Of a stretch of DNA of 64,000 nt, positions 55,403 through 58,213 are shown piece by piece. Source of the stretch: Paramecium tetraurelia (Eukaryota > Ciliophora > Oligohymenophorea > Peniculida > Parameciidae). Where the stretch lies: positions 319,454 through 383,453 of the forward strand of contig NW_001799122.1 in assembly GCF_000165425.1 (NCBI RefSeq), read 5' to 3'. The position numbers and the translations under genes are program-made. Numbering within the stretch: position 1 is the stretch's first letter; each line of letters starts with the position of its first letter. Below the pieces are notes generated by a model that did no database searches, was not told the DNA's origin, and saw only the letters and a program-made list of their open reading frames with translations.

Positions 55403-55630
55403 TTTAATAATAAAGTATAATAAATTTAAATCCCTATCATTTTACTTAAATTTGATTCTTAACATACAACATTATTGATGCTATCATAATAATTGAAAGA
55501 TTTTTCCTATTATTTAGTTTATCTGATTTTAAATGAATTAGAGTAGTTCCTACTCGTTAGGAATATCTGTTATTCAAAATATATTTTATGATAAATTAAA
55601 TTATATATATAATTTATTATAAACCTTAAG

Positions 55631-56570
55631 ATGGATTTCACAGGACAATTCAGACTCGACGAAGACTCGATGGCTATAAATATCTTCCAAACACCTATTA
55701 AAGGGTTAATATAAGGTATTTTTAAACTTTTCATCTCCATTCCCTATAATATATTACCTGTTTATGGCGGAATATTTTCGCGCTTATACTACAATTTTGT
55801 GACAAAAAAATATATTTTTAGATTCAGAGGCTAATTGCAATTCATAAGCAAACACAAATCAGAAATTATTTGTTTAGACTGAACCTTTCGATAAACCAAA
55901 GATTTAATCAGATCTATTCAAAACTTAGAAAAAGTGGAGTCTAAAATATATCAGCAATCGAGTAATGAAGGAATTATCTCATGAAGCTATTGCTTATAGT
56001 GATATTTGCTAATAATTGACTGATGAAATGATTTAAGAATTAGATGGAAAATAAAATGATAGACAGAAAGAAATCAAAAATCTTAGAAGAAGAGTTTATG
56101 ATGCTTTGAATGTCATGATTTCTATTGGAATAGTAGTCAAAGAGAATAAAATGATGAAAAAGAATTCTGAAGCCTAAGTGAATCTAACAAAGTAGAATTT
56201 AATAATACGAAAAGTAAGAATTAAATTTAATTTTAACAGCAAAAATTAAAAGAATAATTATAAATAAAAAAAGCATCAGCAACAACATAAATTTAACAGC
56301 AAGACACTCTTAAAAAATTAGTAGAATTGAACAAAATGAGGGATGTAGATGAAAGTGAGAAGATCAGATTTCCATTCATTCTTGTCAAAACCTAATTAAA
56401 TAATGTTGATGAAGTAATTAATTTCCATATCATTAAAATAGGATGAATTAGTCTTAGAGTAAAACAAATAGATGGACTATTTGAAAGTATTTAGTAAAAA
56501 TCAACTTGATCTCCAGCTAGATCTAACTGTAGTACAAAAACTATTTTAAAGCGAACACATGATTTTGTGA
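55631..56570 (+). CDS. DP, E2F dimerisation partner
   Basis: Exon 1 (55631-55715) reads MDFTGQFRLDEDSMAINIFQ then TPIKGLIQ. Exon 2 starts after 55821 and gives the DP winged-helix: KKWSLKYISNRVMKELSHEA, AYSDICQQLTDEM and IKNLRRRVYDALNVMISIGI VVKENK. The RRRVYDALNVL core that contacts TTTSSCGC is intact. After a 26-nt intron comes the dimerisation region with LKKLVELNKMRDVD and IRFPFILVKT, equivalent to the DP 'LPFIIVNT' strand. A further 28-nt intron near 56412 leads to the C-terminus at TGA 56568-56570. DP proteins bind promoters with E2F and control S-phase genes. The intron between exons 1 and 2 is about 106 nt, far longer than its neighbours. Confidence 0.85.
55716..55821 (+). other. putative 106-nt intron of the DP gene
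   Basis: The sequence begins GTATTTTTAAAC and ends TATATTTTTAG, matching the intron ends used elsewhere in the window. Its removal joins exon 1 (phase 1, last base 55715) to exon 2 with the correct phase, giving a frame that runs into the DP DNA-binding domain. No ATG lies in that frame between the last TGA upstream (55799-55801, inside the intron) and the domain, so an upstream exon is needed. Splitting it into two short introns did not give a consistent frame in my hands. Confidence 0.55.
55766..55783 (+). promoter_or_regulatory. E2F-type binding sites inside the DP intron
   Basis: TTTCGCGC at 55776-55783 is an exact match to the E2F/DP consensus TTTSSCGC. Just before it, GGCGGAAT at 55766-55773 is a one-mismatch match in the opposite orientation. 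Such GC-rich octamers should be rare in DNA this AT-rich, and this pair sits in the gene for the E2F partner itself. Confidence 0.5.
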
Positions 56571-57233
56571 AATATCTAATTTTGTTTTTATAAATCTATA
56601 TCTAACACTTTATTTCATCAAATTTAATAAGAAATTTTAATAGGAATTATAATGGAATAATTCCACTTACACAAAAAATGATTTGGTATATTGATCGAGT
56701 TATTAACTTCTGTTTATTAATTTCAATATTGTTTAATTCTTAATTTAATCTTTTGGATTGTAATTTCAGAATAATGAAATAGGTTACTATGTTATGAATA
56801 TAAAGAAATGTACTTTCATTTTTTCGTAAATGTAAAGACAAAAATATATATTTAGATTTTTCTTAACTTTTTGTTAATTTGGTTTTCCAGAATCTTTCAA
56901 TGAATCGAAAGTCTATAACAATGCTATTTAAATAATAATGTATTAAGATTGCATATTCGTTGTTCTAAGAAGGAATAAAATTAATATATTTTGATTATAT
57001 TTTTTCTATATTTAATTAATAATTAAGAAGAAATGGATTTTATATTTAAAAAATTTTTGAAAAGTTAATAGTTAAATTATATATATAAAATGTCACAAAT
57101 TTTGTTTTTTGGACCGGTCTCCTCCCAATATTTTGCTATTACACACAACTGCAATTGAACACCAAAAACACTATAAAAGGTGTTAAATTCAACATTTTTT
57201 TCAATTATTTTTAAATTGATATACTTAAATTGT
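56571..57233. other. intergenic, with a GC-richer patch at 57111-57184
   Basis: AT-rich spacer between two plus-strand genes. At 57112-57119 there is a perfect 8-base palindrome, GACCGGTC. At 57158-57163 and 57179-57184 there is a 6-base inverted repeat, AACACC/GGTGTT, with a 15-nt loop. The patch could be promoter elements of the following gene or a small RNA. No known RNA was recognised. Confidence 0.4.
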
Positions 57234-58041
57234 ATGACTTCCATATAATAAAATTCTCAAGTAGAGGGACCTTAGGAATAAATGAAGAATAATACTCCAA
57301 CATCACCAATAGACTCCGATTCCTCCGATTCTTCGTATGATTTCGTGAAGGATGTGAATTAAAAGTCCTATCTGAAAAGAACTATTGAAGAAGATTAGGA
57401 ACTTCTCTCAAAATATAAAGGTAAAACTCATATATAAAATGAAATAGGCAAGCACGGGCTAAAGTATTAAAAAATATCAAATGAGTAACGATAACAACTA
57501 ATCAAATAGGTAACAACTACAGGCTGTATGATAAAACATGCTGCCCGAGATTTGAATATTAATTTCTCGACTGCTAAGGCTATCATGCAAATTTTTAGAA
57601 GGGAAGGTAGAATGTCCAAAAAAAGGAAAAGGTGTACTGCTTAGTCAGAATTTAAAAACCCCGAGATATTAATTTAAGATGTTAAGGAAGGTCTAAAAAG
57701 TCAATTTGGATTGATGAAAGAGGAATAATGCTAGTAGAGACTAAATAATGTGCAGGACAATTTGGATACAATTCATTTTCAATAAATGGAGGAGAAAAAT
57801 AGAAATTAAGCTATTTTTATATAATAATTAAAAACATAGGTTAGAAACTTAAATAAATTTTAGAATTTCTATTTATAAGGGAGAGCAAATTAATTATAAC
57901 AGGAGATATAATAATTGAATTAAAATTATTCTTATTTGCAAATTCAGTATAATCAATAGCAATAAATGGTATAAAAAGTCCACTAATTTATATTAGGTCA
58001 GATATGCAATGCCCCAATATTAACAGTAGTTTCAATTTTGA
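57234..58041 (+). CDS. HTH-domain protein with Gln-rich coiled coil
   Basis: Start at 57234 (MTSIQQNSQVEGPQEQMKNN). After an acidic Ser-rich head and a 27-nt intron near 57421, a helix-turn-helix segment follows: KISNEQRQQLIKQVTTTGCM then IKHAARDLNINFSTAKAIMQ and IFRREGRMSKKRKR. The 'IKxAAxxLxINxSTAKxI' pattern resembles the homeodomain-like HTH of psq/transposase type. A Gln-rich coiled coil and a 28-nt intron near 57971 lead to a short end, MVRYAMPQYQQQFQF, at TGA 58039-58041. No catalytic transposase domain is present, so a DNA-binding regulator is likely. The target is unknown. Confidence 0.72.
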
Positions 58042-58213
58042 TTATATTCAATATTGCAATAAGACAGTTATTTAATTTGGCATTAAAGATAATAATTATA
58101 TCTGGTCCTTTTTTTTTTTGAAATTTTACACTTTAATATTCCAATAATTATAATGATACTAATTAATAAAATAATTTCTGTAATGTTTCTGTTTATTAAA
58201 TTAATAAAAAAAA

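Follow-up and report, generated by a model that had tools for sequence, protein, structure and literature searches.

A conserved block with an E2F/DP consensus site in the long first intron of a Paramecium tetraurelia DP gene: a candidate element for autoregulation

The window analyzed here is a stretch of 64,000 nucleotides from the genome of Paramecium tetraurelia (a 69-Mb assembly in 231 contigs with a G+C content of ~27%), and at 55631–56570 on its + strand it carries a gene of four exons that encodes a DP transcription factor, the partner of E2F. The features of this gene are collected in Table 1. When spliced, the DP frame gives an uninterrupted protein of 259 amino acids in which the E2F_TDP domain is found by Pfam (PF02319; E 1.8e-11, 44.1 bits compared to a cut-off of 25.7). 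Human DP-2 (1cf7_B) was the best solved structure for this protein, with an E of 1.6e-7, and was the only one below E 0.1; alignment of the two proteins shows RRRVYDALNV to be common to both, and by its sequence the Paramecium protein is judged to be nearer to DP than to E2F. The dimerisation domain PF08781 was matched weakly in the unspliced frame (20.7 bits, cut-off 24.7), in the spliced protein no Pfam match to it is listed at E 0.001, and residues 153–251 gave a weak match to the DP-1 chain 2aze_A (E 0.18). The downstream neighbour of the gene, a frame at 57159–58121, had an unexpected match to Phospholip_A2_4 (27.8 bits, cut-off 23.9), its protein being glutamine-rich.

Table 1. Features of the DP gene and its first intron (positions are those of the 64,000-nucleotide window; L002 and L003 are the two duplicates of the gene)
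Feature	Position	Strand	Remarks
DP exon 1	55631–55715	+	85 nt, ATG at 55631; MDFTGQFRLDEDSMAINIFQTPIKGLIQ plus one base; kept in both duplicates
DP intron 1	55716–55821	+	106 nt, phase-1, GT-AG; 105 and 110 nt in the duplicates
Intron 1, 3′ 60 nt	55762–55821	+	One difference from the L002 copy
Inverse GC box GGCGGAAT	55766–55773	−	CGCGCACT in L003; E2F-like, one base short of the consensus
Conserved core	55767–55806	+	41-column alignment with the remote copy L003
E2F/DP consensus octamer TTTCGCGC	55776–55783	+	9-mer TTTTCGCGC from 55775
Second conserved box GTGACAAA	55799–55806	+	GTGGCAAA in L003; role putative
DP exon 2	55822–56213	+	Winged-helix DNA-binding domain at about 55932–56150
DP intron 2	56214–56239	+	26 nt; 26 nt in both duplicates
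DP exon 3	56240–56413	+	
DP intron 3	56414–56441	+	28 nt; 27 and 23 nt in the duplicates
DP exon 4	56442–56570	+	Stop TGA at 56568–56570

Searching the same genome at the DNA level gave two further near-full-length copies of the DP gene, L002 with 86% identity and L003 with 69%, along with two more matches that were confined to 43 bases of the DNA-binding domain. The three copies agree in their 85-nt exon 1, the phase of intron 1, a long intron 1, a 26-nt intron 2 and a product of 259 amino acids, and from their differing divergence and the background of Paramecium we infer that they derive from two genome duplications. Between the window and L002, exon 1 has a dS of 0.81 and a dN of 0.054 (28 codons), and it appears to evolve as coding sequence under selection at the protein level. 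The E2F/DP family as a whole is large in this genome, with 24 domain matches merged to 22 loci, most of which are ~30% identical to the DP copies where they can be aligned at length.

A preliminary description of this DNA had proposed that the DP frame needs an upstream exon, joined across an intron of about 106 nt, and this is confirmed by the gene model. Intron 1 starts with GTATTT (donor GT at 55716) and ends with TTTTAG (acceptor AG at 55820–55821), the last base of exon 1 opens a codon that exon 2 completes, and the DP frame is reached solely by joining exon 1 to 55822. No shorter GT-AG intron can be drawn from the same donor because there is no other AG inside intron 1, and an internal AG is missing from this intron in each of the 3 copies (shuffle P 0.027, 0.015 and 0.005). 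With internal AGs absent from all three introns, two short introns in place of the long one, an alternative that the preliminary description had also raised, are ruled out. The intron as read-through coding sequence is ruled out as well, since the one-base length difference between the window and L002 shifts the frame and retention leads to a TGA in all three copies. GT-AG ends and restoration of the frame upon removal are found in 3/3 DP copies, and we predict that the intron is spliced out of the DP mRNA. Within the intron, at 55764–55802, there is also a mini reading frame of 12 residues, MAEYFRAYTTIL, that is retained in L002 apart from a single silent substitution; in L003 the corresponding position lacks an ATG, so the mini-frame was set aside.

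At 106, 105 and 110 nt, the three first introns are outside the 20–30 nt class of P. tetraurelia introns. In the passages of PMC5485702 available, that class holds ~98% of the introns of the species, introns longer than 40 nt make up 720 of the 94,711 in a newer annotation, and the median is 22–26 nt across the Paramecium species listed. The longest intron of the P. bursaria annotation is 100 nt (PMC12862383, from an excerpt). The P. tetraurelia read mapping described in the same passages of PMC5485702 used an intron maximum of 100 nt, with the same limit applied to intron calls in three other species, and since this mapping limit is 100 nt, introns of 105–110 nt could have escaped detection.

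An exact E2F/DP consensus had been described inside the intron, and the octamer TTTCGCGC is indeed present there, ~145 nt downstream of the DP start codon. The inverse near-match that had been described two bases before it is also present, separated from the octamer by two bases and kept as a GC box between copies, but as an E2F site it falls one base short of the consensus. TTTSSCGC occurs once in the 64-kb window, compared to a mean of 0.61 in shuffled sequence with at least one occurrence in 44 of 100 shuffles; the octamer alone within the window is at chance level and proves nothing. What goes beyond chance is its conservation in both duplicates, an extended motif that is confined to the DP introns, and the counts near E2F/DP and MCM loci. 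We take the octamer to be real because it is conserved in the duplicate DP genes: L002 has TTTTCGCGC and L003 has TTTTGGCGC, giving the consensus TTTSSCGC in 3/3 DP copies, and the change between TTTTCGCGC and TTTTGGCGC stays inside the E2F consensus. The preliminary description had made its proposal depend on conservation of the octamer in orthologues; here it is the two paralogues of the same genome that keep both the long intron and the site.

Conservation within the intron is uneven. Between the window and L002, 44% of the synonymous sites differ, compared to a single difference in the 3′ 60 nt of the intron (binomial P about 4e-14). In the same comparison, 8 of the 45 aligned positions in the 5′ part of the intron are substituted, and there is one gap (Fisher P 0.005 against the 3′ 60 nt), and when this 5′ part is combined with introns 2 and 3 there are 18 substitutions in 98 positions versus 1 in 60 in the 3′ block (Fisher P 0.002). 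Intron 2 is identical at 23 of 26 positions between the window and L002, a level of conservation that the 60-nt block does not significantly exceed (Fisher P 0.08). Synonymous sites between the window and L003 are saturated (pS 0.79), and the core aligns between them with a local score of 25 and a z of 9.7, where 2000 dinucleotide shuffles had a mean of 9.4 and a maximum of 18. We regard this alignment as the stronger evidence of conservation compared to L002. The core contains the GC box (GCGGAAT / GCGCACT), the octamer (TTTCGCGC / TTTGGCGC), TTATACTA and GTGRCAAA. All of these conservation comparisons are between paralogues, and all of the evidence is from one genome. The earlier suggestion that the intron may persist through a regulatory element is supported by this selective conservation in the duplicates.

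The motif was also counted across the 69 Mb of the genome. There are 84 matches to TTTTSGCGC versus 36 for a reversed control, and the extended form TTTTSGCGC[N0-3]TTATA has 3 matches, which are exactly the three DP introns (2 for its reversed control). The 9-mer TTTTSGCGC is found within 2 kb of 5 of the 22 best-scored candidate E2F/DP loci, where 0.11 sites are expected, and of 4 of the 13 best-scored candidate MCM loci (expected 0.07), while a kinesin control had the 9-mer within 2 kb at 0 of 121 best-scored candidate loci (expected 0.70). Since duplicates are not independent, Poisson values for these locus counts overstate their significance. Among the best-scored E2F/DP loci 17 of 22 are without the 9-mer, and 2 of the remaining 5 (L008 and L009) have it in coding sequence. 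Enrichment of the site near replication genes, which the preliminary description had suggested looking for, was seen with the 9-mer at CDT1 and MCM genes, but among the best-scored candidates none of the 2 ribonucleotide reductase loci and none of the 5 DNA polymerase B loci had it within 2 kb, and this counts against the autoregulatory reading.

Classic targets of E2F include the CDT1 and MCM genes. Two CDT1 duplicates (L033, C1 and L044, C34), assigned by PF08839 at 26.5 and 25.4 bits with a cut-off of 22.6, have the site 89 nt upstream of the probable start codon, and an upstream block common to both, TTTTTGGCGCTATTAATTTAAT, is a conserved candidate E2F promoter. The MCM sites are in promoter position at 3 of the 13 best-scored loci (L068, C23; L071, C164; L072, C178), each as an inverted TTTTGGCGC 5′ of the MCM gene, and the fourth (C134) is inside a neighbouring reading frame. 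In L071 and L072 the inverted TTTTGGCGC is followed by ATTGTGGCA, closely resembling the core of the DP intron, and the box GTGGCAAA comes after the E2F site in the MCM promoter of L072, with GTGGCATA in the duplicate L071. Because the 9-mer of the DP intron also precedes the pair of CDT1 genes and three of the MCM genes, TTTTSGCGC is probably a working E2F site, with the other target genes being judged by position only. The flanks of 47 of the 84 TTTTSGCGC sites were inspected, and many look coding. Pfam searches of 10 chosen frames from 10 loci gave 2 CDT1, 2 PHD-finger, 1 copine and 1 PH domain match, with 4 frames having no family.

Autoregulatory E2F sites are found in the E2F and DP genes of animals and plants, and the Paramecium gene likewise has a consensus site within a member of the E2F/DP family. 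It differs from them in that the site is intronic and past the start codon, and in what lies upstream: in stretches of ~3.9 kb around the window and L002 copies, no further TTTSSCGC was found outside the intron, whereas L003 has a second one (TTTCCCGC) ~1.5 kb upstream, at the edge of its ~3.9-kb stretch, which counts against the autoregulatory reading. Intronic E2F sites are known in animals, where introns are typically far longer than those of Paramecium. The preliminary description had seen an intronic E2F site as a new arrangement, and what is new is its setting among tiny introns, the intronic position itself having animal precedents. The first intron of p73 has a ZEB-bound silencer that tempers E2F1-driven transcription (PMC3267157, from an excerpt), and to the extent of that excerpt p73 and the Paramecium DP gene both place DNA for E2F control in a first intron. 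Exceptional intron length is likewise explained by functional cargo in the snoRNA-hosting introns of P. tetraurelia (~80 nt; passages of PMC5485702), but unlike these the DP intron has no snoRNA match or boxes, and its cargo resembles promoter DNA. Other ciliate E2F-DP regulators are the Rb-E2F-DP1 module of Stentor (PMC9371601, in excerpt) and a DP-like partner of E2fl1 in Tetrahymena (a title cited in PMC11385659); the passages at hand on these deal with expression, predicted targets and function, and do not describe a cis-element inside a DP gene. Among the literature matches listed, no title or abstract opening mentions an E2F element in a Paramecium gene.

We think it fairly likely that intron 1 is long because it houses a cis-regulatory block with an E2F/DP site, through which E2F-DP acts on DP itself. 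E2F-DP dimers would bind the intron block, and their binding would set DP transcription through the cell cycle. This autoregulatory reading is supported by the lengths of the introns in the paralogues, where intron 1 is 105 and 110 nt, compared to 23–28 nt for introns 2 and 3. Negative feedback, in the form of repression or an elongation block when E2F-DP is plentiful, seems somewhat more likely than activation, since in DP the site follows the start codon by ~145 nt, whereas in CDT1 and MCM it is upstream. We also put forward, tentatively and as an unlikely outcome, that E2F-DP on the intron is a feedback switch that controls how the DP pre-mRNA is elongated or spliced. When E2F-DP is abundant, the intron it occupies would slow the polymerase or stay unspliced, and transcripts that retain the intron would be destroyed via the in-frame TGA; if true, the DP gene would contain its own autoregulatory checkpoint, in a genome whose introns are otherwise about 25 nt.

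Other readings of the intron have to be weighed against autoregulation. Since CDT1 and MCM genes carry the same motif in promoter position and the block in the intron looks like the promoters of these genes, the intron could be an alternative E2F-driven promoter, with transcripts from inside or after it encoding a shorter DP. However, the first downstream in-frame ATG is at 55965, already within the DNA-binding domain, and L003 does not have an ATG there (VEKEL for VMKEL). The apparent protein-level selection on exon 1 also speaks against a shorter product, as does the extreme rarity of alternative start sites in Paramecium (passages of PMC5485702), and we consider such a promoter rather improbable. 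We find it improbable too that the block works in the RNA, either as a switch of splicing or retention, in which the retained form meets a premature stop and decays, or as a small RNA that has escaped recognition. Intron retention does lead to a premature TGA in all three copies, and the few known long introns of P. tetraurelia (~80 nt) hold snoRNAs (passages of PMC5485702), but no Rfam family was found at gathering score in the window at 55500–56000, in L002 or in L003, the best match touching the intron being snoR126 with 16.6 bits compared to 39. The TGATGA and CTGA box strings are absent from the three introns, folding z-scores are only −0.7 to −1.2 with a double change in 1 of 12 consensus pairs, and the octamer of the block is common to promoters of unrelated genes.

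It is very improbable that the block has been kept merely through splicing constraint and slow drift, with the E2F octamer a coincidence. One TTTSSCGC per window is the chance expectation, the 3′ ends of introns are always constrained, and intron 2 is itself identical at 23 of 26 positions between the window and L002. Against this, the block is ~60 nt and far longer than a 3′ splice site, the octamer has varied between TTTTCGCGC and TTTTGGCGC yet stayed within the consensus, and E2F/DP and MCM loci have more than their expected share of the motif. Internal eliminated sequences are TA-bounded. That the stretch is one of these left in the assembly, and no intron, is barely conceivable: such elements do interrupt Paramecium germline genes, according to partial sources, but three duplicates share the stretch in the same phase and with GT-AG ends, and the exon join demands the removal of a GT...AG piece and not a TA-bounded one.

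If the autoregulatory reading is true, intron length in Paramecium would not be purely a matter of splicing, and DNA for transcriptional control could keep introns long. It would also provide a predicted Paramecium E2F motif and a first list of candidate targets (DP, CDT1 and MCM), and it would mean that an intron limit of 100 nt in mapping can lose such introns and break the gene model.

Some further loci with the motif are described here as observations in their own right. The duplicate E2F genes L008 (C210) and L009 (C194) have, at about position 1933, two inverted E2F-like sites that code for GEALFIITAPKG, while the related E2F copies L006 and L007 are without those sites and have nearly the same peptide GEALFIITAPKG by way of other codons. 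L008 and L009 differ at 48 of 600 positions, and they were rejected as a second intragenic case: the sites are coding, and the identical run of 38 nt is merely the third longest in the pair. Two similar PHD-finger loci, L042 (C25) and L079 (C219), have TTTTSGCGC about 25–50 nt before possible start codons.
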